Positions 21,501-54,100 of a stretch of DNA of 64,000 bases are shown here, piece after piece. The stretch covers positions 29,190,001 to 29,254,000 of the forward strand of contig NC_092674.1 of assembly GCF_964355755.1 (NCBI RefSeq), written 5' to 3'. The notes below the pieces were generated by a model. The model was not told the origin of the DNA, did not search any database, and saw only the letters and a list, made by a program, of their open reading frames with translations. This DNA comes from Antedon mediterranea. Taxonomy: Eukaryota > Echinodermata > Crinoidea > Comatulida > Antedonidae. Position numbers and translations under genes: made by a program. Position 1 is the first letter of the stretch. Each line of letters opens with the position of its first letter.

Positions 21501-22538
21501 TTCTGTGTACGGAATCTTTCTGGAAAAATGTTTAGATGTTGAGACACGGTGCTGAAAATCGTGCTAAAACGTACCGCAAATGTAGGAATTGATCAACTAT
21601 TGGTATTTTTAATTGTTAGGTGATTCTGAGCGACCCAGAACAGGCTCCTGATCACGTCTACTTCATCAAGTCCGGGGAGTGCAAGATAGTCCGAGATGTG
21701 ACGTTAATAAAAAGTAATCTACCGTTTGGTCACGTCAAACTATCGCTTCCTCCGTATACGCCAGAAATGGACGTGGAACCCGAGTTTCTAAGTAAATATC
21801 AAGGCAATTTACACAATGCAACCCTACACATATGCACATTTGGAAAAGGACGATTCTTTGGCGTAGGTAATGTGATCAAGTGTGTTTTTATGTGATAAGA
21901 ATGAATGAACAAACTATCGCAACGCAACGACGTACTGTGGCACAACGCAAGTGAGTTTACCATTCACAAGCGATAGTTCCGAAGATCCATCGTGATTGGT
22001 CAAATTACGTCATTGCGTTTCGTCTACGTGTGCAAAAACGATGGCCTGTGGCACAACGCAACTGAGTTGACCAATCACAAGCAATAGTTCGGAAGATCCA
22101 TCGTGATTGGTCAAATTACGTCATTGCGTTTCGTCCACGTAGGAGCCAGACTTAAAGAAATAAATACCAATAATATGTTACTTAGTTGTTAAACATTATC
22201 TTGTTAGTTTAAGATTTTAATTTAAAAATGATTTTGGTTTTTAAGGCGAGGATCTTCGAAAAACCCACATCATTTCCATCGGTAAAGTTGAGTGTATTTT
22301 GGTAGCGCGAGTTGCGTTTCTTTTTCACAACCACGGAAGGTGTATCGCACCGATGAAACAGAGTGTCGAGGAGCTGATACCATCACGAGAAGACGCTTTT
22401 AATAGCTACATAGAAGGTATTAAATGGAGAAATTATAAACGTGGACTTGTTAAGGAGTTGGTAAACAGACGACACATACCAAATAACACGACGATGGCGG
22501 AAGTTCCGCTGGTATTACGGCGGGAAACTCAGCGGTGA
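18535..22538 (+). CDS. CNBD2: Cyclic-nucleotide-binding-domain protein, CNBD2-like, 558 aa
   Basis: The exons are 18535-18933, 19182-19338, 19695-19807, 20110-20287, 20677-20781, 20977-21161, 21620-21866 and 22246-22538. All are GT/AG with matching phases. The ATG at 18535 is the first in frame after an out-of-frame ATG at 18528. Residues 1-133 are acidic and probably disordered (CGEDDDDDNNSEYDYNDDD). The first CNB domain is at about 235-345, with phosphate-binding cassette FGELALLHETKRTATIVC. The Glu and Arg that bind cyclic nucleotide in PKA-type domains are both present. A second, less typical CNB fold is at about 370-465 (KGRFFGVGEDL). Human CNBD2 has a similar length (about 576 aa) and is linked to spermatogenesis; that role is inferred here. 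AATAAA signals follow near 22555 and 22597. Confidence 0.87.
19508..19660. repeat. Foldback repeat, AACGCAA/TGATTGG type
   Basis: The segment has inverted matches caacgcaac...gttgcgt and caatcacaagcga...tcgcttgtggtgattgg. Related pieces lie at 19040-19110 and 21935-22143, all in introns of the CNBD2-like gene. Confidence 0.6.
19889..20045 (+). mobile_element. TWA-MITE copy 3
   Basis: Both ends are present, flanked by TAA on each side (gctTAA|agctctg and gaact|TAAag). It has two internal units and lies in CNBD2-like intron 3. Confidence 0.85.
20293..20398 (-). mobile_element. TWA-MITE copy 4, starting 5 bases inside intron 4
   Basis: It has diverged ends (taaagctttctgtctagact ... gtgtagacaaagcttta). 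The left end begins 5 bases after the exon 4 splice donor at 20288. Confidence 0.75.
21935..22143 (+). repeat. Tandem pair of 111-bp AACGCAA/TGATTGG repeats
   Basis: Two near-identical units start with ctgtggcacaacgcaa at 21935 and 22046. Each holds tgattggtcaaattacgtca and an inverted caatcacaagc. They are in the last intron of the CNBD2-like gene. Confidence 0.85.
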
Positions 22539-22954
22539 CATAAAAAAAACAACAACAAAATAAAACTACTTAATATACACCTATTGAAAAGAGTAAATAA
22601 AGTGTTTAAGTTGAAATCTGTAAATGGTTCTTTTTAGTATAACTTATAATTAAGAAAGTACTGGTAACATTTCAGATTGTGCTGGGTTTGTAACGTTGCA
22701 AAAAAGGTCATAGGTCAGTCACCATACAAAAAGTATCAAATATACAAAAGTATCAAACATTTTAAGATTCGGTCAAACATTAAATAATATCATACGGTTG
22801 TCTGTACTATTACTAAAATTAAGGAAATAGTTCAATAGGGGTTTAGGACAAATATAGGGATTGTACTTTTTGATGATGCATAAGATATAAAAGGAATTAG
22901 TTTAAAAGTACCTGCATCCTGTATCCTCGCCATGCCTTAACATCCTTGACTACT

Positions 22955-22967
22955 ATGGTATATAAAA
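22955..22967 (+). promoter_or_regulatory. TATA box of LamG copy 1
   Basis: ATGGTATATAAAA lies 33 bases or more upstream of the exon-1 ATG at 23000. The preceding block (catgccttaacatccttgac) is shared with the promoters of copies 2 and 3. Confidence 0.75.
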
Positions 22968-22999
22968 TGAGGCCTTAGGTAACATTCAATTCAGTGAAG

Positions 23000-24339
23000 A
23001 TGAAATCTGGAAGGTATATAGAGCTGTTGCTCCTGGCCGCTATCTATTTCAGCAGTGTACATGTAAACGCTTGCCAAGATTCACAATGCTATCGTCCACG
23101 TAAGTGTATTTTAATATAAATAATTTAATATTTTGCAATCTTACCGAAAAAAAAAATTATAGATCTCTAAAATATTTCTCGAAGGAAGATGAAAGTGAAA
23201 ACTCATAGCGTTGAAAACAAATCGGCGTCGTTTGTGAATATAATATTTTGGTATTTATTTGCATCAGTAACTGTATAACACTTGTATATCTTTAAGTAAA
23301 CCAGAGAATGGTGAGATTAGTGTCACTTATTTCTGAGTAAATTTGACTTTCACATATAGACCTACTTATCTTTTTCTTATCCAATTTACACAGACGAGCG
23401 GTAACGGTAAGCACAAAACCGCGTAGCTTGTCCCACGTTGAATCTGTATCTATCCTGAGCGGAACCGTCCGTCCGCTCCAAATTTTGTGTAGGTGGTCAT
23501 AAGGAATAACATCGAGTCTATGTTTTTATTACCGTTACCGCTTGTCTGTGTAAATCAGCCTTTAGAGGGCAGTTCTGTTAATAATCTTTCGTCTTGCAGA
23601 AATTCTCCCTGACCATCACTGGAAACTTGATGGATGTCCAAGAGACAGGACTATTTGTAGTAGTAGCTGCAGCCAAGAAGAGCTTCCAGAAACAGTTGTC
23701 AGTCCAACTGGTATCAAGTCAAGATCTTTGCCAACAGTATACGGTCCAAATGGCAACTGCGCCGTGTACCTAGACCGAGCTCATTCAGATGCACTTGACT
23801 TCGGGGAATTCGGCAACACTTGATTGACCCGCTTAGAACTTTTCAAGAGAGGTTTAACCGTCAGTGTATGGCTCAAGATTGATACGAGCCTCAATGGCCG
23901 GATGTACTACGTCAGTTCTGGCGTGAAATCGACAGCAAGTCACGGTATATCCATTTTCGGAAGCAGGAATTTCGAATCGGTTCGTGATAGATTCGTTCTC
24001 ACAGTACGTCTTAAAGATCTAAACCACAATTGGGAAGCAAATACTTCCGAACTCAAACGAAATGGTCGGTGGACACATGTAGCTTTTACATGGAGTCATC
24101 GCCATGGTCTCCGAGTCTTTATCGACGGACAAGCACTAGCGCTGGATAAATTCGGAACTGAAACACCAAATAATGATATCAACCAATACACAAGACTAAC
24201 GATTGGTCGACCGAACAGTGAGAAGAATTATTTTGGAACCTCTGGCTTTTCAGATTTGAAAATATATTACCAACGCCTAGAGGATCATGAGATTGCAGAA
24301 GCCTTCACCAATGAAAGCCTTCTTAAAACTGTCGCCTAA
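23000..24339 (+). pseudogene. LamG/jelly-roll secreted protein, copy 1, with in-frame TGA
   Basis: Exon 1 is 23000-23099 (signal peptide MKSGRYIELLLLAAIYFSS) and exon 2 is 23600-24339. The reading frame matches copies 2 and 3 throughout, except that codon 108 (23821-23823) is TGA where the others have TGT (Cys). The second Cys seven residues later is Phe. The frame stays open for 171 more codons with no other defect, so the stop looks young, polymorphic or a sequencing error. As read, it would give a 107-aa product lacking most of the LamG fold. The promoter and poly(A) signal (AATAAA at 24523) are intact. A DNA transposon lies in its intron at 23381-23560. Confidence 0.75.
23381..23560. mobile_element. 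MITE with TTTACACAGACGAGCGG ends, copy 1
   Basis: The ends ccaatttacacagacgagcg and cgcttgtctgtgtaaatcag are inverted repeats. The interior holds ggtaacgg and a gataga block. The copy at 41424-41606 is in the opposite orientation. Confidence 0.8.
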
Positions 24340-25905
24340 ACCAAGATGTTGTGGTTGATGGTCAATTTTGACCTTTTTATAAATCATGAATTAATTAAAT
24401 AACAAATCAATAGTAACCATTATAACATATTATTCTTGGTTGATTTAAAACCTTTTCTTCTTGATAAAATAGTTTAAAGGTTTCTACGTTTCCACGTACT
24501 TTTTTGTTACATTTTCTCCTGTAATAAATTGATCTAATACAAAAGACAGAAGCAACCATGTTTGTTGTTTGATCTAATTAACGGAGATACTAGGCTAATG
24601 TAGTATGGAACAGACTGTAGGCTTATACAACATCTCCTTCGTCATGGTTAAATGAGAGAGGATTTGTATATGAGATCAATGTATCTTGCCGCCAAAGCCA
24701 GTGGTGTCACAGATATGAGCGCTCACTGGCTAAACCAAGGGGCCTCAGACTGAACAGTCCAAATGCAATGCAGCATTGGAGGTCCCCCAAGGAGTGCTAA
24801 ACCAGGGGCCTTTTCCACGGCAGGAACCGCGGTTTGAGTTCGATTAGGTTCAGTGATTGACTTGACGTAGATATCCTAAGCACCACAACAATAAATCTAT
24901 AAAAATCCGAGTCCGCGGTCTAGCCACACATATTATTATTAAAAACAACATGTTTGGATTACGTAACTTTAATTAGCTTTAAGCATTTCTAGAACAACAT
25001 AAGAGTCCAAAATAAACAAAATACATATCTAATAATAATTAAAACTACGGTCGAAAAAATTACTTTTCCGTCATCCAATTGTGATGAAATAAAAAACATT
25101 TTTCATCCACATTTTTTTTCTGCTAAATTTATACTGGGTACATATAGGCTACATTTCAATAGAGCACTCACTAGTGTGCACACAAGATATACAGGATACC
25201 TTTCGTTATTGATATTTATTTACAGAATGTCCCATTTTTATAAAATTAATTAAAATTAATATTTATAATGGCAATAAGATACGGTAAATCTCGCAACGAA
25301 ATCATTATTATGGGATATTTTCGAAAAACGCATGCGTAGAGTGAGGTGTGACTTAGCTAAGGAGTGACTTTAAATAGGCGTATGATAGCCGATTGATGTA
25401 TAGTAGTCATATTCGATAGTCCATCGCTATGTTCACATTTAAATATTTAAAGCTCTATGGATATTATTAGTTTATTTTAATAATGAAATAAAACTACATT
25501 TACACAGTATTAACTTTGCATAATATTATTGTTTTTGTTATATTTACGTGTTTAATGCTATACTTTGTAATGTTTATATTTTTTATTTTAGATTGTAAAA
25601 GGATCCCAATGGAAATAAGCTGATAAGCTTTTTGGGCTATCCTGGAAAATCTTTTATAAATGTATTATTTGTAATGTCCGTAATTTATGTTATCACTTTG
25701 TATGTATTTTTTATGATGATTTTCCAAATAAATTCAAATCAAATCAAATCATATTCCGGATTACGAAAATACAGTTAACCTTATCGTTAAAAGGAACTGT
25801 ACAGTCAGTCTATCCACTAATATATTAGAAAGGAAATAGCTACTACTTCCACTAAATAAACTCATTTCCATGTCACACCATAACATCCTTGATGCTATGG
25901 TATAT
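24340..25905. other. Spacer between LamG copies 1 and 2
   Basis: It holds the 3' UTR of copy 1, a possible SINE remnant at about 24690-24920 (B-box-like gagttcgatta) and a LINE 3' end at 25590-25750. There is no coding exon. Confidence 0.5.
25590..25750 (+). mobile_element. LINE 3'-end fragment with AAATC tail
   Basis: The block aggatcccaatggaaataag...tgggctatcctgg is followed by an AT-rich stretch and a tail of caaatcaaatcaaatc. This is the usual form of a 5'-truncated CR1/L2-like retrotransposon 3' end; the family is inferred. Confidence 0.5.
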
Positions 25906-25906
25906 A

Positions 25907-25919
25907 AAAGGTCATGCTT
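25907..25919 (+). promoter_or_regulatory. TATA box of LamG copy 2
   Basis: ATGGTATATAAAA follows cataacatccttgatgct, the same block as in the other copies. The ATG is at 25990. A further 5' stretch (cgttaaaa, cttccactaaataaa) is shared with copy 3. Confidence 0.8.
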
Positions 25920-25989
25920 GAGAACCTTCATCTAGTGTGAATATTGACTATTGTTCCTACTGTAGGCCTGTACTATAACGTACGGCAAG

Positions 25990-26937
25990 ATGAAATCTGG
26001 AAGATATATAGTGCTATTGCTCCTTGCCGCTGTCTATTTCAGCAGTGTGAACGGTTGCCAAGATTCACAATGCTATCGTCCACGTAAGTACGTGTTAAGG
26101 TTATCTCATAATGTAAGACTGAATTTTTCAATCATTATTAGCAAATAAGCAAATCCTGATGAACTTAAAGTTCCTGATTAAATCGTGTGTTGTTTTACAG
26201 AAATTCTTCCTTACCATCATTGGAAACTTGATGGGTGTCCAGAGGACGAGACTATCTGCGGCGGCAGCTGCAGCCAAGAAGAGCTTCCAGAAACAGACGT
26301 CAGTCCAACTGGTATCAAGTCAAGATCTTTGCCAACTGTAGACGGTCCAAATGGCAACTGCGCCGTGTACCTAGACCGAGCTCACTCAGATAGCATAGAC
26401 TTTGGAGAATTCGCCAACACTTGTTTGACCCGTTTAGAACTTTGCAAAAGAGGTTTAACCGTCAGTGTTTGGCTCAAGATTGATACTAGCCTCAATGGGC
26501 GAACTTACTACGTCAGTTCTGGTGGACAGACGACAGTCAGCCGCGGTATCTCCATTTTGGGAAGCAGGAATGTTGAATCGTATGGTGATACGTTTGTACT
26601 CACAGTACATCTTAGGGATCTAAACCACATCTGGGAAGCAGATACATCGGCACTTCCATCAAATGGTCGATGGGCACATATAGCTTTTACATGGAGTGAG
26701 TACCATGGTCTCCGAGTTTTTATAGACGGCCAACTGCAAGCGCAGCATAAATTTGGAACTCCGCTAACAACTAATCTTTACCAATACACAAGACTAATGA
26801 TTGGTCGACCTAACAGCGTGAGCAATTATTTTGGAAGCTCTGGCTTTTCAGATTTGAAAATATATTACCAACGCCTAGAGGATCATGAGATTGCAGAAGC
26901 CTTCACCAATGAAAGGTTTCCAAAAAAATTGGCCTAA
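25990..26937 (+). CDS. Secreted LamG/jelly-roll domain protein, copy 2, 276 aa
   Basis: Exon 1 is 25990-26083 and exon 2 is 26201-26937 (phase 1 intron, GT/AG). Residues 1-22 are a signal peptide (RYIVLLLLAAVYFSSVNG, then Cys23). A Cys-rich linker follows (Cys23, 28, 44, 51, 55), then a concanavalin-A-like LamG domain from about residue 82 to 270. The landmarks are CAVYLDRAHSDSIDFG, RGLTVSVWLKI, GRWAHIAFTW and GLRVFIDG. These strand motifs are those of the LamG/pentraxin jelly-roll superfamily. Cys106 and Cys113 flank a short loop and could bond with each other. The ligand is unknown; a lectin, defence or matrix role is inference. It is the same size as copy 3, with which it shares its 3' flank. 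Confidence 0.85.
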
Positions 26938-27282
26938 AACAAGTTGTTATTGCTTAATTTCAAATTTTGTAGAAATAGTAAACATTAATAGTGATAATTA
27001 CTGAAAATTATCAATAAAACAATAATATCTTTATAGTAATAACTTGAGAAATAATATAAAATATAATTTTGCAGTAATTTTCTGTTTCTTCTGATTTTGA
27101 GTTGTTTAGAAAAAGAATAAATCGATCTATATCATAAAGACATGATGTAATTATTATTGTGTTATTGTTTTTCTATTTAAAAAAATCAATCGCACCCACA
27201 AATCTGAAGGTACTTACAAACACATTTAAACTTAAATAAAGTAAATGTTATTAATCAATTCTTAATTTAGTTAATAATATTG

Positions 27283-27925
27283 ATTGATTTATTTATTTAT
27301 TTATTACCATCTTTACTGAGGGTAGCCTATCCAGTTCCTAATGGAACTGATCATTTAGGGCCCTCAATAAAACATACATACAGTAAAACACATAAAATAT
27401 TGAATATTCAAATGACATAAAATAGGCCTAAAAATTTACAATGGTTATAAAATTCATATAAAAGTTAAAATCGTTGACAGATAAAATATATATATATAAA
27501 ATACGAACAATATTAGCTGGAAATAAATTCTTTAAGTTCACGTTTAAAGGAAATAATATTTTCAGATTGTCGAATGATTTTAGGAATCATATTAAAATAC
27601 ATAGGCGCTTTATAACTGAAACATTGTTTAAAAATCTCTAATGAAGGTCGAGGAACAATATAATTACAATTAGAGATGGATCTGGTAGTTGGTCGACCTC
27701 CGGGCTGAGTCCTGGTTAACATGCGACTGATGTAATCCGGAATGGTATTGATGGAAGCCCGATAGGCGAGACAACCAAGTTGAAACTGATAACGTTGAGA
27801 AACGGATGAGATGGAAAGGGTGTTATCAATAAGGTGGGATGGGGTATGAGGGTGAACTTTCAAAATAACTCTTTTAGCTCTATTTTGAAGTTTCTGGACT
27901 TTAGCAATGAGTGGTGCTCGTGATG
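27283..27925 (-). mobile_element. 5'-truncated LINE inserted in the duplicated NAXE fragment
   Basis: The minus-strand frame 27863-27513 ends in a LINE-type tail (YKAPMYFNMIPKIIR, then SENIISFKRELKEFI). The 3' side ends in taataaataaataaataaat on the minus strand. The flanks are aatattgat and gatgcaac, which are contiguous in the parent NAXE gene, so the insertion point is exact. Confidence 0.75.
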
Positions 27926-28040
27926 CAACATTCAGTCCCTGGGTAATCTGGTAGATTCAGCAGTGACACATACCAAATAACACGACGATGGCGGGAAACT
28001 CAGCGGTAATACAACAAGGATAAATAAATAAAACTAAGAG
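27921..28040. pseudogene. Duplication joint: NAXE 3' fragment fused to CNBD2 3' fragment
   Basis: Positions 27921-27960 match the last NAXE exon (gatgcaacattc, gtaatctggtagatt; compare 30444-30484). Immediately after, 27962-28025 match the last CNBD2-like exon (gacacataccaaataacacg, gcgggaaactcagcgg; compare 22469-22536), with a 20-25 bp deletion. Neither piece can be coding here. Confidence 0.85.
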
Positions 28041-28400
28041 TGAAAACTCATAGCGTTGAAAAAAAGAATCAGCGTCGTTTGTGAATATAATATTTTGGTA
28101 TTTTATTGTTAATATAACATTATCCTTTTAAGTAAACCAGGAAATTAGTTTGACTTTGTTCCCCAGTAAACTATCACTGTTCATATCTCATCCTGATTCA
28201 GTTCCGTTAGTATACTCTCTTGTGTTACAGATAAGAGTCTTCCCCACGAACACTAGAAACTTGATGGGCGTGTCAAAGAGACGTGACTATTTGTGGAGAC
28301 AGCTGCAGTTAAGAAGAAATTTCAGTTGGTATCAAATCAGCATATCTTTGCCAAAAATAACAATTACGCCGTGTACATAGACCAATCTCATTCTATTTGT
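28040..28400 (+). pseudogene. LamG remnant (decayed copy-1-type gene)
   Basis: Positions 28042-28105 match the intron of copy 1 at 23196-23260 (aaaactcatagcgttgaaaa). Positions 28230-28400 match the start of its exon 2, with substitutions and indels (cactagaaacttgatgg, ctttgcca, acgccgtgtac). The promoter, exon 1 and most of the LamG domain are gone; the copy is broken off at about 28400. Confidence 0.8.
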
Positions 28401-28406
28401 CTTTTT

Positions 28407-28772
28407 AGTCTCGTGCAACGCGACTCTACAGCTTACGATGTCGGTCGGTTAGTCGGTTGGTCGGTAAACACCAACTTGAGTTGATTAAGGAATAGAATGA
28501 TAGAAGGAATTCAGAAATAGAAGGATATGAATCGACGGTGACATCAAACGATAAGAGCGCGCGAAAGCTTAACAAACATAAAGGTTGTTGAGCATGAGCA
28601 GTAAACAATTATTAGGCACGCGACTTGTATATTAACGACGGTTAATTAAACTGTGTTTATTTTGTAACATTGTGGACGGTCCGCGGTCTCTCGGTTAGAG
28701 TCATGGAAGCTTTGATCTCGAACTGATGCATATCCTTCCATTCCTTAATCCATGCTTTAGCACGAGACTACT
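28407..28772. mobile_element. Possible fold-back insertion in the LamG remnant
   Basis: The ends agtctcgtgc and gcacgagact are exact inverted repeats, and aaggaatagaatgatagaagg at the left is loosely mirrored by ccttccattcctta at the right. It sits where the remnant breaks off. The repeats are short, so this is tentative. Confidence 0.4.
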
Positions 28773-28981
28773 GCAGCCATGCATGGCCTTGTTTATTAAG
28801 GAAATAAAACTATAATATATAATTATATAACTTTACATATTCCTGATTAGGCCAATAGCGACATATATCACCATCGTTAAAACGAACTGTTTATTCAATA
28901 GATTAGAGATACATTAGTTAACGTTAAATACTTCCAGTAAATAAAACCCTTTCCATGCCACGCCTTAACATTATTGATGCT

Positions 28982-28994
28982 ATGCTATATAAAG
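28982..28994 (+). promoter_or_regulatory. TATA box of LamG copy 3
   Basis: ATGCTATATAAAG follows cgccttaacattattgatgc, matching the promoters of copies 1 and 2. The ATG is at 29059. Confidence 0.75.
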
Positions 28995-29058
28995 TATCAT
29001 GATTGGAAACGTTCAACCATTGCTTTCCGTGACTGCTGTTCCTACGGTGTAAAACAAA

Positions 29059-30072
29059 ATGATACCTGGGTATGTGTTGCTCCTCGCCGCTGTCTATTTC
29101 AGTAGTGCCCATGTAAACGGTTGTCAAGTTTCACAGGGCTATCGACCACGTAAGTCTGAAGTTTATTTCAATTAATTTATTATTGTCTTAAAACCGAAAG
29201 GCCACATTGTTTCCATCATTTTAGAGCACGTGCTGTGTAGTGAAAAAAAACGCCAATTCTAGAGATCTCATGATAAGCTTATACGTTTTAAAACTGCTTT
29301 TTACAAGCGAAGTTCCTTGATAATTTTCTGTTTTACAGAAATCCTTCCTTACCATCACTGGAAACTTGGGTGTCCAGAGGACGACACTATCTGCGGCGGC
29401 AGCTGCAGCCAAGAAGAGCTCCCAGAAACAGACGTTAGTCCAACTGGTATCAAATCAAGATCTTTGCCAACTGTAGACGGTCCCAATGGCAACTGCGCCG
29501 TGTACCTAGACCGAGCTCACTCAGATAGCATAGACTTTGGAGAATTCGCCAACACTTGTTTGACCCGTTTAGAATTTTGCAAAAGAGGTTTAACAGTCAG
29601 TGTTTGGCTCAAGATTGATACAAGCCTCAATGGCCGAACGTTCTACGTCAGTTCTGGGGGACAGACGGGATCCAGCCGCGGTATATCCATTTTGGGAAGC
29701 AGGAATTTTGAATCGTATGGTGATACGTTCGTACTCACAGTATATCTTAAAGATCTAAACCACAGCTGGAAAGCAGAAACCTCGGCACTTCCACCAAACG
29801 GCCGATGGGCACATTTAGCTTTTACATGGAGTGAGTACCATGGTCTCCGAGTTTTTATAGATGGCCAACTGCAAGCACAGCATAAATTTGGAACTCCGCA
29901 ATCAACTAATCTTTACCAATACACAAGACTAATGATTGGTCGACCTAACAACGTGAACAATTATTTTGGAACCTCTGGCTTTTCAGATTTGAAAATATAT
30001 TACCAACGCCTAGAGGATCATGAGATTGCAGAAGCCTTCACCAATGAAAGGTTTCCAAAACAAATGGCCTAA
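29059..30072 (+). CDS. Secreted LamG/jelly-roll domain protein, copy 3, 274 aa
   Basis: Exon 1 is 29059-29149 and exon 2 is 29339-30072. It differs from copy 2 by a changed N-terminus (MIPGYVLLLAAVYFSS, giving a shorter signal peptide), loss of the linker Cys (SQGYRP against SQCYRP) and a one-codon deletion (KLGCPED against KLDGCPED). The LamG landmarks and the Cys pair (NTCLTRLEFCKR) are kept. The 3' flank is nearly identical to that of copy 2 for about 350 bases, so the two arose by a recent block duplication. The function is unknown, as for copy 2. Confidence 0.85.
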
Positions 30073-30428
30073 AACAAGTTGTTACTGATTAATTTCGAAT
30101 TTTGTAGAAATAGTAAACATTAATAGTAAATAATTACTGAAAATTATCAAATATTTGTAATCAATGAAAACAACAATATCTTGATAGTAATTAACTTGAG
30201 AAATAATATAAAATGTAATTTCTACATATTTGTAGGAATTTTCTGTTTCTTCTGATTTTGAGTTGTTTAGAAAAAGAAATAAATCGATCTATATCATAAA
30301 GACATGATGTAATTATTATTGTGTTATTGTTTTTCTATTTAAAAAAATCAATCGCACCCACAAATCTGGAGGTACTTACAACAACATTTAAACTTAAATA
30401 AAGTAAATATTATTAAATAATTCTAAAT

Positions 30429-32481
30429 TTAGTTAGTAATATTGATGCAACATTCGGTCCCTGTGTAATCTGGTAGATTGAGCTGATACCTGTTTGCAAG
30501 AGAATCCGGTACAAATCGTCCACCAAGGTAGTGATGTCTTCCTTTAAATAACTCGGCACACTTTTTCGGAGCGGTTAAAGAGATGAGAAATTCTGGTTGG
30601 AGACCATCTGGATTTCCATTCTCAACATCCCAACCTAAAAAAAGGAATGAGGTAATTATTTTTTGAATGCATGAATTTGAAATAAGGGAAAAACGAATTA
30701 ATTGTAATTGTTTGTATGGGGGTGGGTTCAGCAAATCATATTTCCAGACTGCACTGTTTCAACACCTCCCTCCTCCCTTCTCACAATCCCATGACACAAT
30801 GCTGAGACAAGACGACACATAGGCCCAGCTTTTTTTTTTACAATCTTACCTGATGGTACATCAATGCTACATATTGGTATCGTCACCGTCTTCAAGGTAT
30901 CTAAAACATCCTTAAAGGGCGCCCTCACTTCACCTTTGAAACTGAACCCGAAAATTGCATCTACTATGAACATGTAGGTCTTATTCATGTCATCTGACTG
31001 TGGAAGGCTGGATACAAATGGGATGTCCATCATAGAGCACTGTGTGGTCAGGTTTTGGAAAAGCTCTCTTGATGGTCGTTTGGGGTAAAATATTGTCGGA
31101 CGATAACCCTACAAAACAACAATAGATTTTCCAAGCAATTAAAATGTTTTCAAAAGTAACTTACCTGTCTACACTACTCTATAAAACTAGTTTGACAAAA
31201 AAAATGATATGCCTAAATATTATAGTGATATGCTTAAATATGGTAGTGACATCATCTCCATATCGGCACATATCATTTTTTGTCACATAAAGTAACATTA
31301 AAGAGATAGCTTTAGTCATTAATACTGTTTTTTGACTGTGACATTTATAATTCTCTCCCAGGGTCCCAGTGGAGACCAGTGTTTTTGTTGACTGATTGGG
31401 CCACCTGGTAATTTAGAATATATAAATGATAAATAAATAATTGTTTGGAGTAAATTAAAGTAATTATCTTATAAGTAACTTACAAATAGTTTTAAATGGC
31501 GTGCACACACTAGTCCGTCACCACCATTATTTCCGGGTCCACAGCAAATCAAAACGTTGCGACCATTTGTAATTGACGTGTTTAGGGGATATGCTTGGGC
31601 GATTGCTGTTGCGCAACTCAATCCAGCTAGTTCCATCAGCTGATCAACACTGAATTTGTATTCGTTAAACAGTAGCTGGTCAATTTCAGTCGCTTCATCT
31701 TGACTAAATAAATAAAATAAATTATAATACAATATTATCGTAAAACAATCTAGTGTAATTAAGTCACTAGTAAACTAAAATGAGATGGCTCACAATTAAT
31801 TATTAAATATTTATAAAACTTTATGATTTTTTGATCAAGCAGGTTTGATAAATTTGACCAAAAAAAGTTACATACCTCAGAAGTTTTAAAGTCTTAGATG
31901 TTGCCATAGTGGTGGATGAAGTATTTAAAAATTGTTGCTGACAAACTATCTTTGGAAAAATTCTTCTAAATGTTGTCAATGAATTTCTGAAATATTTTCT
32001 GGAGACAAGAGTCTGAAAAAGATGTTTTAGTGATTAGCTAAATTGATAATGCAGTTAAACTACATGTGGGTTTATTATAATTATTTCTCTTTTGGCGTCC
32101 CATATACTACATAGGCCGAACCGACTCGGTTGCAATATCAAAGTAAAATGGCAGCGATAGCCACAGCCTCATAGATTTCCCTATCATACCAGCCTTCGTA
32201 CTATTATATCTACTACCAGGCCTACGTGTTTGATTATTAAGGCATTTCAATTAAACTGTAATAGGTGTAAACCAACCAAACTAGGCCTATATAGTTTCGT
32301 CAGAAAAGCAGCCATAAAATTAAATAAAAATCATTATTTTTCGACTTTAAAACCCAATAGACTTTAGCGACCACGACGAATTATTACTCTTATCGAAGTA
32401 TGTATGGCACGCATTAACCGCATAAATTTATAAACGACTTTATATGTCTCTACTAACCATGGACCTCCAAGTACTAACCAT
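30429..32481 (-). CDS. NAXE: NAD(P)H-hydrate epimerase (YjeF_N domain), 281 aa
   Basis: It epimerises damaged NAD(P)HX so that the dehydratase NAXD can repair it; the human enzyme is also called AIBP. The exons are 32481-32458 (predicted start), 32012-31876, 31703-31484, 31108-30850 and 30634-30429, all GT/AG and in phase. Signature stretches include [64 protein letters not shown] and [20 protein letters not shown]. The length fits the family (human 288 aa). The first 50 residues are basic, have no acidic residue ([20 protein letters not shown]) and look like a mitochondrial presequence. An in-frame ATG at 31909 could give a shorter cytosolic form. The first exon is the least certain part. 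Confidence 0.92.
31165..31314 (-). mobile_element. TWA-MITE copy 5
   Basis: Degenerate copy in NAXE intron 3: ctgtctacactactctataa at the left, gagatagcttta at the right, with internal gatatgc/taaatatggtagtgaca units. Confidence 0.65.
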
Positions 32482-33271: not shown

Positions 33272-35912
33272 ATGGAAGAACAAACATGTAAAGCTGATGA
33301 CAAGTATGAGGTAGAATCAAGAGTATCTGATGAGGATGACAGAATACGAATAAGCATACCCTCAGTAATGGTGGATTACAAGAAAGAAGAAACGGCACCA
33401 ACGTCGAAGGAAAAAGGTGATCCAACAATTGAAAAGGAACAGAGGGCTGGTGGTGGCAATATTAGTATTAATGTCGACGATATTAAACAATTTAATGATG
33501 TTAATCAAAGTGTAAAAAGTAGTGATTCAAGGAGGCAAGAATTAGACAACTCAGAAACTGGTGGTGGACAACTACATTCAGAAGGCAGTTGCATCAACGT
33601 CCCAAAAACATTAGCAGGAGGAGACAGAGAGACGTTGATGTCCGCCGCCAAGGGTGTGGATTTTGCGATTGAGCCTGCCAACGTTTACTTGGATGAGGTC
33701 GATGAAGAAATCAATCAGGTGATCAACTCTAGTACAGACGATCAGATGCAGTTTGGTTTTAGCGAACAAGTTAATCATTCATGTGGTCTTACTGTAAATA
33801 CACCTGCTACAGAAATGACTGATAGGTATGTGACAAAACAATGTGATGTGCCCATATATGGACATGATGATGTCATATCACTACCATATTTGGGCATATC
33901 ACTACCATATTTGGGTCACATCACTTTTTTTGTCCAACTAGTTTGATAGTGTATATAGAGCTTTAGTTTGCTGTAAGTCCTATACTGAAATACAAATGAA
34001 TGCCATTACACCTCTTGTATTCAAATTCATATGGACATTCAGTATGTTGCTCTTAATAAAAAATATGTTTTTTTCTTTTAATTTTGCTGTAAGAATGACC
34101 AAAGTAGTTAATTTTAAATATTTTAAGCCATATTTAGTCATAAGTTAAAATACAACTTTAAACATTTTGCCTATATGCTTAGAAACAAAATTACTCAACC
34201 AAAATGATATAGTGGTTTAAATTATATATCCATCTAACAAAAGATATTGTTTGTTGTTAAGAACTTTATATTCCCTGTCATGCATGAATGACAGGGAATA
34301 ATGTTTTGCAACAACCTGCTTGGCAGGGAAGAAACTGAAGAAAGGGAAGAAAGTATATACAATCTTTTGTTATGTATATATTTATACCAATTGTGGTGTC
34401 TCATTCAATGGATTTTTGCTTTAAAAAATAAACTGTTGCTATTGTCAAATTCTTCGGTTTGCCTGCACCATGGTAACCTTACCACACACACCAAACAAAC
34501 ATATTTTTTTCTTTTTTGCAGTCATTTTCAAATACACAGTATCAGAACACCAATGAAAGAAAGATATTATGAAGATGCAGTTATGTTAATGAATTGCCGG
34601 TGTAAAAGTGGATCAACCTATCTCACCTCCGCCACAATGAAGACAACCCCAAAATGCATGCGGACAACCAGTGGTCGTCAAGTGCCTGTGTTTACGCTGC
34701 CAAGTTTGGTGGCGCACATCAATAAACCACCTTTCTCGTGTAATCCAAACAGCTATTTTTATGTTCGTCAACAGATTAAGCAAGAGCCAAACTTTTTGAA
34801 GGTAATTTTATCAGTTTCATAGACATCCCACAACAAGTAACTCGCTAATTACAGGATGGATAATCTATATTAATGCTTACTAAGGGGGGTGGGGAGGACG
34901 TGGAGCAGGACCTTGGGATTGGAAGGCAGGCATTAACCACCATCAAGCTACAGCTCCACTACAATCTGTATGGAAACTTCACTTATATTATTGCCCTAGT
35001 TGCCTAATGGAAGAGTCCAAGTTTAAATCCCGTTCACTGTCACTTCATCTTCACCATTTATAGTATATTGCTTGAACACTTTTTAGTGTTTTTCTGAAAA
35101 AAAAATGTATAATACTTTTGTACTCATAGGCTTGGAAAGGTTACCATGGAAATGTCTATTTTGAACCTATGACCTGTAAACAGTTAGCAAGTGGGGGTGA
35201 TAAAGAGCATCATATCGCAAGATCAAGCAACAAATCAAGCAAAACTGGACGTTTTAGTTTACCAAACCTTGACGGTCGTTCACAGAGTCGTGTCTCATTT
35301 GCCAGTGACACAAAAACGGACCAATCAAATAGGGTAAAAACACGTAGCAGATCTGTTCGAAGTTCTGTAAGCAGAAGTAATAAATCGACATCACAGAACG
35401 CATCAATTTCGCAAAAAATGAGACAAATGTCTATTCTTGATAGACAGTCTGTAATGAAGCGTAGCAATTCTAGGCTTAGCGAAGACATGAATTGGATATC
35501 AGGCCAAGAGTCTACAGGCTCTCTGTGCATTGGTCAGCCACAACAACGTACAAAATCTCAGGCCTACTCCGATTCTGACAAACATTACAAATTGAAAATA
35601 TGTCGAGGTATAGCAAGCCGAAGTAAAGATTATATTGACCAGTCGCCAGTGTTTAGTTTAAATGGCGGGAAACTTAACGAATCATGGTTGGAGAAGAAGT
35701 TTCAACCAAGCTCCAGGTTGGTTACTGCCACCCCCGAGGACTCCACAGAATTCTATCGGTACTCCAGTAATCGGACATCGGTAGTAGATGGTAGTCAGGG
35801 AAATATCGACCAATCAAATGATCTTGTTCATGTAGTTCCATCGCCGAGTCAGGGAAACCCTAGGAAGTTAAACATAAAGGATACAAGTTTACGATTAACT
35901 TTTTCACATTAG
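33272..35912 (+). CDS. Unrecognised 538-aa protein
   Basis: The exons are 33272-33825, 34522-34801 and 35130-35912, GT/AG with phases 2 and 0 agreeing. I do not recognise the family. Residues 1-184 are acidic and Ser/Thr-rich, probably disordered. The middle exon is compact and likely the conserved core: RYYEDAVMLMNCRCKSGSTY, then VFTLPSLVAHINKPPF, NPNSYFYVRQQIKQEPNFLK and, across the next intron, AWKGYHGNVYFEPMTCKQL. The C-terminal third is basic and Ser-rich (KTRSRSVRSSVSRSNKSTSQ), typical of disordered cytoskeletal or ciliary proteins, but that is only a guess. No signal peptide or membrane segment is seen. The first splice donor lies at the edge of a MITE. An AATAAA occurs near 36569. Confidence 0.75.
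33826..33965 (+). mobile_element. TWA-MITE copy 6, abutting the splice donor
   Basis: The element lacks its left end and begins gtatgtgacaaaacaatgtg exactly at the exon 1 border. The consensus at this point reads ttatgtgacaaaa, so the donor GTATGTG matches MITE sequence at all but its first base. The right end gtttgatagtgtatatagag is present. Confidence 0.8.
34880..34970 (-). mobile_element. SINE head fragment (family 2)
   Basis: The minus strand reads a tRNA-like head with TGGTGGTTAATGCCTGCC and CCAATCCCAAGG, as in the copies at 41.95 and 50.84 kb. It is in intron 2 of the unknown gene. Confidence 0.55.
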
Positions 35913-39120: not shown

Positions 39121-42100
39121 TTATTCGGATTTGATGTCACCTCCGGCATGAACCATTCCATTAGGAATGGGAGCTGATGCTGGCTCCGGTATGGCGTCTG
39201 CATCCCCCACAAGTTCAGTGGTCATTCCTACCATATTCTGTAAGATAGCCTGACTGGAATTGTTGTTTGTCTGTTCTTTTGACATCTTTGTCTCTAGTTC
39301 ATCCTGTTAAGAATTGTAATAATGTTGAATCAATTAAAAATCAACTTATAAAGCTCTGTCTACACTATCAAACTTGATGTGACAAAACAAAAAAATGTGA
39401 TGTGCCCATATATGGGCATGATGATGTCATACCACTACCATGTTTGGGCACATCACTACCATATTTGGGCACATCAAATTTTTTTGTCAATCTAGTTTGA
39501 TAATGCAGAGAAATCTTTAAAGTATGTGAGAAAGACAATCTAGAATGTGGTCAAAGAACATTCCACTGAAATGAAAAATGTTATAGGTAGAGAAAAGGTA
39601 ATGCACAGGAATCTGCTGAAAGGATGCAAATAAGGAAAGGTGTTGTCTAGCTCACCTGTGAAAGACTCGTCAGTTTAGGAGGCAAGTCTTCAATGCCAAT
39701 TTCCTGATTGATGTCTCCATTGGGCAGACTAGATTCAGTAGCTGTGTCTTGACCAGTCTCTTTTGGTTGTTCTTCAGCCTCTTCCTCTGATGGAGGTTCC
39801 TTAACGTCTGATAGAGGTTCCTTAACGTTTGTCGGCAGTTCTTTAATTTCTGATGATGGTTCCTTAACCTCTGATGGCAGTTCCTTAACATCAATGACAT
39901 TAGCTTCTGCAACAGCCTCATTTCCAGTCTGCAAGAGTTGGAAAAAACTTTACATAAATGATCAGGTCAGCAGTAGTGATTATTACATTGTCTGACGATT
40001 CTATTTAAATTTGAAATGTTTAAAATGAAAACCAATAATCAATAATCAATAAATTATTCAATATAATTGATACCTGTTGCTGTTCATCCTCAGTGTCATG
40101 GTATGTGCCGATACTTGTTATCGTTTCTTCAGCCTTCAAACTCACAGAGTCAACATCATTATCATCCTCTTCTCCACTACCAAAGCTGAAAAACCATTAA
40201 AATAAAAAATGTTAAATTTAAATTAAAAATAACATCATTGACTTTAAAATGTGCTCACAACAGAGTATCACCTTGAATTTAACAGTCACCGGAAGACTAC
40301 TGAATGATTAAAATATATATAAATATAACACAAAGCATAATTTGGTTGGCATTCAATGCATTTTTGGCAATATTGTTATGGATTTCCCAATTGATAAATA
40401 AAATCAAATAAAATAAACTTACTATGCAACCGCTTTGCTTTCACTCATCGACAACTCTATCTTTACTCTCTCTTTAAGGTATGGCTCCTCACTGTCCCTG
40501 AAAATAAAGCTGAATTATTTAACAACACTAGCATAGAGCAGAATCACAAGATACCTTATTTTGGAAATGTTATAGATAACTATTATAAAAAGCAAAAGAA
40601 ACTCACTCATCTTTATCACTGATGCCGAGGTCAGCAGCCATTGCATCGTCTCTTGCCTAAAATAAAAAGCAAAGCAAGTTTGTTATAAAGGCTATATTCA
40701 AGAGCTTTCAAAACCTTTAAAGCTCTGTCTACACTATCAAACTTTGTGACAAAATATTGTGATGTGCCCATATATGGACATGGTGATGTCATATCACTAC
40801 CATATTTGGCCACATAAAGTTTGATTCTGTAGACAGAGCTTTAGAAACACCTCCACGAAAGACGATCTAATACTACCTTTCCAAGTTCTTCCTCTTCTAT
40901 CTTCGAAGCTGATGCCATTGCAGTCTCCAATGCTTCCTTTGTGATACCACCTCCCACATCTTCTTCTTCCCCTGCTTCTGTGTCTTCTTCATCAGAGGAC
41001 TCCTCAGAGGAGCTGTCACCTTCCTCATCCACTCCTGTGTCAGTTCCTGTTTCGCTTACTTCATCAGCTACGCTCACTTCCTCAGCCTCACTTGCTTCTT
41101 CAACTCCGCTAACTTCCTCGGCACCACTCACCTCTTCTGCGCCACTTACTTCTACAGCGTTCATGCGAAGGTTACTGCCGCTTGTGTCCAAGTCTTGCAT
41201 AAGACGGAAGAAGGCTAATTCATTGAATAGTATTTCTGATATATCCACAAGAAGGTCTTCGCCGCATTCTCTCATTCTTAAGAAAAAAAGAAAATATTAA
41301 GCATTATCTTTCATTAAATGAATCAACAGAGCTTCATTCCATGACAAGATCAGATACTGCGAGATCTTATCGGTAGAGAGTGCCACATAAATATTCTCAA
41401 AATACGTTCTCTTTATTTGGAATTAAGGCCAATTTACACAGACGAGCGGCAACGGTAATAAAAAAATAGAATCTATTTTATTCGTTATGACCGTATACAC
41501 ACAACACAGAATAGACGGGCGGTTTTCACTCAGGATAGATACAGAATTTTGTGGGACAAGCTACACGGTTTTCCGCTAACCGCTCATCTGTGTAAATTGG
41601 TCTTTACACTTTTTCATCTGCAATTATTCATAGTGAATCTTTTGGTAGTACTTACTTTCTTCCAGCAAACTTAGACAGCGAATCCTGGAGAATGGAGCCA
41701 AGTTGCTTGTTAAAGAAGCGAACGAACTCTTGACTGTCATCACGCTGCCGGGTTAGTGTCAATACAAGACGTCGCAGATACGCCAGTAACTCAGAAGAAC
41801 ACACCTCATCAATGTGCTCCTTCAGGCATGGGATGACCTCTTGCATAATACTCTTGATCTGGTGATCCAGTTGTCTTGTGTCAATTCTTGGGTACTGGAA
41901 AAAAAAATATATTAAGAATCTTAAAATACAATTGGTAATTCATAGTGGAGCTGAAGTTTGGTGGTTAACATGCTTGCTTTCCAATCCCAAGGCCCGGAGT
42001 TCAATCCTGACTTAGTGCCAGGGTTGTAACTCACGACTGTTTCAACTCAACTTTATAAGCCTCAAATGAGACTTTAAAGCACGATAAATAATATTTTATC

Positions 42101-51100: not shown

Positions 51101-54100
51101 TACACAAATTAAACTTACAGCATTTATTTCACTGGAATTATGAGCTAGAATATTCTCACCACGTTGCAACCTCCTAAAAGATACAAGACAATTGATTATA
51201 CACATTTTAAATGTGATTTTCACTTCTACCACACTATCAAACTTTATGTAACAAAAAAATGTGATGTAACTCTATATGGACACAATGATTTTATCCAACT
51301 ACCATATTGGGGCACATCACTACCATATTTGGGCACATCACTACCCTATTGGGGCACATCACTACCCTTATTGGGGCACATCACTACCCTATTGGGGCAC
51401 ATCACTATCATATTTGAGCACATCACACTTTTTTATCAAACTAGTTTTATAAGTGTAGACAGAGATTAAGATGTCCATACCGTAAGTTAGACATCAACCT
51501 CTGGTCTTCAAAGTTGACAGAGGAGGCAGAAGGTTCCTGTTCAAGCATACTAGTAGCAGCATCTCCTGCCCCTGCTACGTCATCTTCTTGGGTAGCCTGG
51601 TAGTACTGCACCAGCTCACGTAGCTGGTTCAGTCTCTCACGCATTTCTTCAAGTCGCCTTTCAAAAAACAAAATAAATATAGTAAAATTAATGTTAGAGC
51701 TCAAATGTGTCAATGCTAAAAAGTAAAATAAATGTATTTATTGGACAAATAAATATATATCTTATCTTATCTATATCAAATATAGACCTATCTATATCAT
51801 ATTATGCTACAATTAATTAAATATAGTCTTATTCAATAAATGATCAAGGTTATTCAACAGTAGGTTGCATTGCAGCCCACTTGGCACGGTGTCCAAATCA
51901 CTAACTAACCTAAGTTTGTCTTCTGAGACTGCTTGCTGTGAGGTTTCAGATCTCGCATCTTCTGTTATTGACGTAGCTTGCGACACAACATCCAGAATAT
52001 TCATAGAACTTGTACTCATTGTATCGCCATCTGAAATAAAAACAGAAATAATAATATATTTTGCAAAAACTATTTATCAATTGACATCATTTGACAAGGT
52101 TTTTTAAACAGGGGAGAACTAACATAATAATAATATTAATAGTCTGCAAAAATGGATATCAACGATTTGTTGATAATTTAATTTTAGCAGTCAAAATGGG
52201 GGGAGCATACTCTCCTATCAATACCCCCTGGATCCACCCCTGTAGTCCTTTATTTCATTTCTAAGTACCAATGTCTTCATATTTACCATTGTTAAGTGTT
52301 TGAGGTCGGAGTCGCTTAAGCTGCACCAGTAAGTCATCCATTTGATCTTTCTTCTCTTGCAAGTCTTGCAGCTTATTTTGTAACTGCTCATGCTCAGAAG
52401 CCATAGCTAGCAGCTGCGACTATAAAGTGGAAAAAAACACAGATAAATTATTTTCTGACCAAAATGTGTTCTAGAAACTATCATTTAACATAAAGCTCTG
52501 TCTACACTATCAAACTTGTTTCCCAAATTTGGTAGAGATATGCCCAAATATGGTAGTGATATGACATCATCATGTCCATATATGAACACAACACATTTTT
52601 TTGTCGCGTAAAGTTTGATAGTGTAAACAGAGCTTTGACTTGCATAAACGAAGCAATGGAAATAAAAAATATCTATAAATATGTTACCTCTTGGGTTGAA
52701 ATCTTGGAAGCCATACCCTGCTGTTCATTTTCTGAAGCATTTTCACTTTCTTCACCAAATATTCTTTTTAAAGCTTCCTTGCGTCTTCGTGCCAATTCAG
52801 CGCTGGAAATAACTGTCTCTTCCAACTCACTGGCCGTCGCTTCAGTAGTAGTTTCTGAAACTTTACAAAAACAAGACACTTTTATTTTAAATATAGAATA
52901 TAGAAATCTTATATTTATAAACGGTATCATCCACATAAAGTTAGAAATTTCAATTTGACATCGAATACATTTTTGCATTTTTTTGTATTAAACTTTGTTT
53001 AATTCAATGAGAACAGCATAGACCAACATTCATAGGCCGTCAAAATGGCACATAATGTATTTTCCACAAAAAAAAAAAAATTGTTTCTGAATTTACCATC
53101 ATCATTGTCTTGATTTTCTTGCTCAGTCTTTAATAGCTTGCCCTCGATCTGGGCCTGGAATCTCAGTAAGGTTTGTTGTCGACTTTGAAGCGCCCTCAAC
53201 TAAATAAAAAAAGACATACAATGTTTACAATGGGGGAGAGAACAAGAGAATAGCAAATGAAGTTTTAAAATTATAGATTTAGAAGGCAGAATAAAATTAT
53301 TGATAAAACGGAATGTAATACATATGTGGACATGATGATAATATCACTACCATATTTGAGCATATCACTACCATATTTGAACACATCATACTTTTGTTTA
53401 TCAAACTAGTTTGATAGTGTAGACAGAGCTTTAAGCTTACCTCTTCCTGTTGCTGTAGCATTTTTTTTAGAAGATCATGTTGCTGCTTCAAACTAGCTAG
53501 TTCTTCCATTTGACCCATGTTTCCTTGACCCTGTAAATAACATCAATATAAAATAATAATATCAATTAATATCAATCCTCTTCCCACTAATATCGATAGT
53601 ATAAAGCTCGGTCTACACTATCAAACTAGTTTGACTAAGAAGTGTGATGTGCCCAAATATGGTAGTGATATACCCAAATATGGTAGTGATATGACATCAT
53701 CATGTCTATGGGCACATCAGTTGGATAGTGTAGACAGAGCTTAATACAATTCTGCATAAGCAATGCAATCATAATGTAATCAATCATTCATCCTGCTTAT
53801 GCATACAGAATACTTAATAGTGGAATATATTATTTTGACATAAAGAAAAAGCAGTATTCAAACGCATTGTGACATTTGACAAATAAATGCCTTCACAGTG
53901 TCACTCTCTCTTGGGAAATTTTGTGATTGATTTAGTGAGCATAAAACAGAAAGGTTATATATTTGTTGCCTCAAAGATATGGTACAATAAAGACAATTTC
54001 TAGCTAACTTGCTAAACATGAATTCTCTCAGTAGATCCTAAAATACTGTACTGTAATAATGAATAAAAATGTATTATGAATAACCTTTAACTCTAAACAA

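Follow-up and report, generated by a model that had tools for sequence, protein, structure and literature searches.

In the yeast CUP1 arrays, a tandemly repeated block lies between genes and has one of its ends inside a neighbouring gene; the joint unites an RSC30 fragment with other flanking sequence and shows no more than 3 bp of homology, and non-homologous recombination has been inferred (Zhao et al. 2014, PMC4232551). A standard class comprises partial and chimeric gene duplicates, in which a small-scale duplication cuts genes and leaves truncated duplicates beside their intact parents (reviewed in PMC3449122). The cluster of LamG genes in Antedon mediterranea described here can be set beside both. 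By analogy, the CUP1 arrays may be regarded as a close precedent, with an intergenic block repeated and a fragment of a neighbouring gene fused internally in both cases. However, the CUP1 arrays consist of near-identical repeats that are polymorphic among strains, whereas the LamG copies are 5–27% diverged, mosaic and known from one assembly, and the LamG block has both of its ends in the last exons of two genes, whereas in CUP1 one end falls in a gene. The partial duplicates share with the LamG locus the truncated tails located near intact parents, but at this locus the tails are short scars (approximately 37 and 42 bp) rather than new genes. Gene conversion between tandem paralogues, in turn, leaves a sharp step in identity at the edge of alignable sequence, and the step at the start of exon 2 in the LamG genes (see below) resembles this pattern, although in the single haplotype of the locus conversion looks the same as a hybrid-forming deletion. 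Our search of the literature on tandem-gene conversion and Laminin_G_3 arrays returned no direct match.

The window, by which we mean the whole analysed stretch of 64,000 nucleotides (C5:29,190,001–29,254,000 of the 354-Mb assembly), contains a convergent gene pair: a plus-strand CNBD2-like gene, which ends at 22538, and the minus-strand NAXE, which ends at approximately 30431. The last two exons of NAXE match YjeF_N (PF03853) with 71.5 bits (E = 1.1e-19; Pfam cut-off 24.9). The joined exons of the other gene match Pfam cNMP_binding with 45.6 bits (E = 6.9e-12; cut-off 27.5); the designation “CNBD2-like” comes from an earlier note on this DNA, and our assignment rests on this domain, which is shared with other cNMP-binding proteins. 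The interval between the two genes is occupied by LamG copies 1, 2 and 3 (A, B and C), all on the plus strand, and by one remnant (psi, or A′), and an assembly-wide DNA search found LamG copies at these four places only. Each LamG gene consists of a signal-peptide-like exon 1, from which the products are predicted to be secreted, and a single large Laminin_G_3 exon (copy 2 scores 57.7 bits against PF13385, above the Pfam cut-off of 27.6). Exon ends and introns of the genes at the locus were set from splice signals and homology rather than from transcripts. Copy 1 spans positions 22999–24339, with exon 1 at approximately 23000–23099 and exon 2 at approximately 23597–24339, and has one in-frame TGA. 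The 5′ flank and exon 1 of copy 2 lie at 25480–26083, and its exon 2, 3′ UTR and 3′ flank, followed by the final NAXE codons, at 26190–27283; copy 3 (28797–30072) has an open frame. Both outer genes are intact, just as the earlier note stated, with the CNBD2-like last exon (22245–22538) open to a TGA at 22536–22538 and the NAXE last exon (30429–30758, minus strand) open to a TAA at approximately 30431.

In the middle of the cluster, the tails of these two genes are found a second time, and this internal joint is real. A fragment of the NAXE last exon at 27921–27957, possibly extending to 27961 (minus strand), is identical to its source at 30443–30479 in 35 of 37 positions, and a fragment of the CNBD2-like last exon at 27965–28008 (plus strand) matches its source at 22471–22535 in all 42 aligned bases (27965–28006), apart from a 23-bp deletion that sits between GGCGG repeats. 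Self-BLAST recovers both sides (27921–27961 versus 30443–30483, 92.7%, E = 4e-10; 27965–27994 versus 22471–22500, 100%, E = 1.5e-8). Seven bases, CAGCAGT (27958–27964), lie between the two pieces; the CNBD2 piece, said to reach position 28025, can be followed to the stop codon at 28006–28008, beyond which an A-rich stretch (28009–28038) matches the CNBD2 3′ UTR in 21 of 30 positions, which is no better than shuffled sequence (0.69). Elsewhere in the window, the 116-bp joint finds an exact match of at most 30 bp (in the CNBD2-like gene), whereas 1000 shuffles gave no more than 16 bp. The combination is absent from the rest of the 354-Mb assembly, the exon pieces matching only the flanking exons, once each, and the right-hand part of the joint having the copy 1 intron as its sole additional match. 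The joint is thus far above chance and unique in the assembly, in agreement with the proposal of a duplicated block that ends inside the last exon of each flanking gene, and the NAXE tail is followed by the CNBD2 tail in the parental orientation, as in a tandem (direct) duplication. Since the extreme last codons of NAXE (27265–27283) lie to its left, a 5′-truncated LINE at 27284–27923 (minus strand; 3′ end at 27284–27288, TTTA tail) divides the NAXE fragment, which bears out the suggested later insertion; approximately 40 dispersed copies of this LINE were scored, the best relatives being 96–97% identical, and copies elsewhere in the assembly extend beyond the position corresponding to 27923.

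The two breakpoint exons offer no long homology to each other (best local match 11 bp, score 22, versus 21 for the 95th percentile of the null), and long direct homology, the hallmark of homologous unequal crossover (NAHR), was thus not found at the block ends. Joining by a non-homologous or microhomology-mediated route therefore fits better, and the “unequal exchange” proposed earlier finds no support in the homologous sense at these ends. The exons share no exact match longer than the 11-bp word GAGCTGATACC, which begins a few bases at most from the NAXE breakpoint, at approximately 30480–30490, and recurs at approximately 22371–22381; random loci reach an 11-bp exact match in 0.84% of draws. 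An involvement of this word in the joining is suggestive only, as its second occurrence is separated from the CNBD2 breakpoint by approximately 90 bp and its use would require a further deletion. At the joint itself stand the seven bases of CAGCAGT.

The divergence between copies 2 and 3 is strikingly uneven. Identities were computed with strict gap costs and shuffled controls, because alignment with cheap gaps overfitted them (introns seemed to be 88% alike). Along the two copies, the 5′ flank is identical in 150 of 206 positions (0.73) and exon 1 in 73 of 84 (0.87), the introns are unalignable and near-random (z = 2.1), exon 2 is identical in 703 of 744 positions (0.945) and the 3′ flank, as far as the NAXE tail, in 324 of 342 (0.947). 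The whole tract of copy 2 from 26190 to 27283 is thus 94.5–95% identical to 29328–30442, and the two noncoding flanks differ from each other with p = 1.5e-12. A change-point scan places an abrupt step inside the gene pair at 26190/29328, i.e. at the start of exon 2, and it was reached in none of 500 permutations (p < 0.002), as is seen in gene conversion or in paralogue hybrids. Ks is 0.127 between copies 2 and 3, versus 0.37 between copies 1 and 2 and 0.43 between copies 1 and 3, from which it follows that the 3′ tract is young, while the 5′ flank, at 73%, is about as old as the whole family. The region 26190–28104, minus the LINE, is thus young, and the 5′ halves are of about the age of the family. 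The last part of exon 2 (24240–24318, 26838–26916 and 29973–30051) is near-identical across all three LamG copies, synonymous sites included, and is perhaps another conversion tract.

A comparable step occurs in the remnant A′. Its first part, 28039–28104, is identical to the copy 1 intron (23194–23257) in 61 of 64 positions (95%), whereas beyond 28104 the identity to copy 1 falls to 93 of 120 in the rest of the intron (0.775) and 126 of 159 in the first part of exon 2 (0.79); the step at 28104 is significant with the choice of boundary allowed for (p = 0.001), the boundary itself depending on 64 bp. The remnant had been taken as a match to the copy 1 intron over 28040–28400; a close match is seen only as far as 28104, and 28105–28393 is a much older LamG remnant with several frameshifts. 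Its intron is alignable to that of copy 1 only (z = 10.6, versus 2.6 for copy 2 and −0.6 for copy 3), and in its exon 2 part the affinity is undecided, with six sites each way. Informative sites group copies 2 and 3 in exon 2 (95 versus 21 and 12), in the 3′ UTR (86 versus 2 and 5) and, weakly, in the upstream flank (20 versus 9 and 10), but in exon 1 the closest pair is copies 1 and 2 (9 versus 2 and 3). The order A, B, A′, B′ put forward in the earlier note is therefore upheld by the affinity of the A′ intron to that of copy 1 and of copy 3 to copy 2, and the shared 3′ flank of copies 2 and 3 is confirmed, the two copies being close to each other only from exon 2 onward. Exon 2 and the 3′ flank do not place copy 3 nearer copy 1 than copy 2, a result that would have spoken against that order; the pairing in exon 1 is that of copies 1 and 2. 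Judged from these comparisons, copy 3 is no simple duplicate of copy 2. Comparison of the A–B spacer with the psi–C spacer detected homology only in the immediate 5′ flanks of copies 2 and 3 (from approximately 25480 and 28797), much of the remaining spacer DNA being dispersed repeats, among them those at 28400–28757, which fill the space between psi and copy 3. At 25523–25754 a very young dispersed repeat interrupts the copy 2 5′ flank; approximately 40 of its copies, 94–99% identical, were scored across the assembly. A search for further LamG copies as outgroups yielded only two distant protein matches (L008 and L009, C8 at approximately 10.78 Mb), possible outgroups which, at 28% and 38% protein identity, are too distant for a DNA phylogeny.

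We consider it probable that a block duplication with its ends in both last exons was followed by homologous exchange between the LamG paralogues. The interval between the CNBD2-like gene and NAXE, already carrying tandem LamG genes, would have been duplicated head to tail by a non-homologous or microhomology-mediated join, and its ends inside the two last exons would have left the outer genes whole, with a scar of NAXE tail and CNBD2 tail in the middle of the block. The chromosomal order A, B, joint, A-like, B-like supports this step. The mosaic divergence in copies 2 and 3 and between A′ and A requires a later homologous exchange, which would have replaced or homogenized part of the block and made copy 2 (or 3) a mosaic in which exon 2, the 3′ flank and the NAXE tail are young, and the 5′ flank, exon 1 and the intron are old. 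This may have been gene conversion from copy 3 to copy 2, or the reverse, running from exon 2 to the joint; alternatively, an older array of four genes may have been duplicated recently, with deletions between paralogues leaving the hybrids B/C and A/psi. The high identity of the fragments leans towards a joint that is young rather than as old as the 5′ halves, since in an old one neither the CNBD2 fragment (42/42) nor the opening stretch of A′ (61/64) would be expected to be so well preserved (binomial probabilities of approximately 4e-4 and 1e-4, on assumed old identities of 0.83 and 0.78, respectively). Parsimony and the order A, B, A′, B′ favour an old joint, and with a young one the old remainder of A′ requires an extra hybrid-forming deletion.

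The simpler history of the earlier note, a single block duplication by unequal exchange followed by nothing but point mutation, deletions and the LINE, would also account for the gene order, the pairwise affinities of A with A′ and B with B′ and the integrity of both outer genes. It predicts, however, even neutral divergence, whereas the noncoding flanks of copies 2 and 3 are 73% and 95% identical (p = 1.5e-12), A′ changes from 95% to 78% identity with A (p = 0.001), and the introns of copies 2 and 3 are unalignable while those of A and A′ can be aligned; with the order kept but the ages mosaic, one uniform event without later exchange is very improbable. An assembly artefact, in which one haplotype of the locus was appended head to tail to the other, seems just as remote. 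The divergence of the 3′ tract, 5%, is attainable between haplotypes of very polymorphic invertebrates, but alleles should agree over the whole block, and here the 5′ halves differ by 27%, the introns are unalignable, A′ has decayed, and some deletions and a LINE are private to the fragments. Somewhat less remote, though still unlikely, is a recent patchwork in which no full block was duplicated and one template-switching repair event mimics a duplication: a break in copy 2 would have been repaired from copy 3 (exon 2 through to the NAXE tail), then from the CNBD2 tail and the intron of copy 1, the repair tract rejoining at an old LamG pseudogene, with an old LamG gene on its other side. Such an event would explain why the young tract, 26190–28104, is contiguous save for the LINE, all of its parts being approximately 95–100% identical to their sources and both sides being old. 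It needs several template switches, though, reduces the order A, B, A-like, B-like to a coincidence of an older array, and meets an A-rich stretch at 28009–28038 that is not clearly CNBD2 UTR.

On the favoured reading of duplication followed by exchange, the LamG block exemplifies tandem duplication of an ordinary sort, well preserved and later blurred by exchange between copies, and shows no new mechanism. Its scar is an unusually clear record of a small cluster growing between unrelated genes with neither of them harmed. Exchange can make a duplication seem younger at one end, which calls for caution when dating from part of a gene.

Copy 1 is probably a pseudogene, judging by its coding sequence. 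A TGA at 23821–23823 stands in place of the cysteine codon of copies 2 and 3, and at 23842–23844 the next conserved cysteine has given way to phenylalanine; with the frame otherwise open over 245 codons, this suggests that its function was lost recently. The intron of copy 1 contains a palindromic element at 23381–23562 with inverted ends CAGACGAGCGGTAACGGTAA...TTACCGTTACCGCTTGTCTG, probably a MITE, and a relative of it is found at 41425–41600. The last intron of the CNBD2-like gene carries two tandem copies of a 104-bp unit (21926–22140), which are 91% identical, and a short repeat at 31174–31293 has more than 10 relatives across the window on both strands (e.g. 33827–33953 and 53322–53422).
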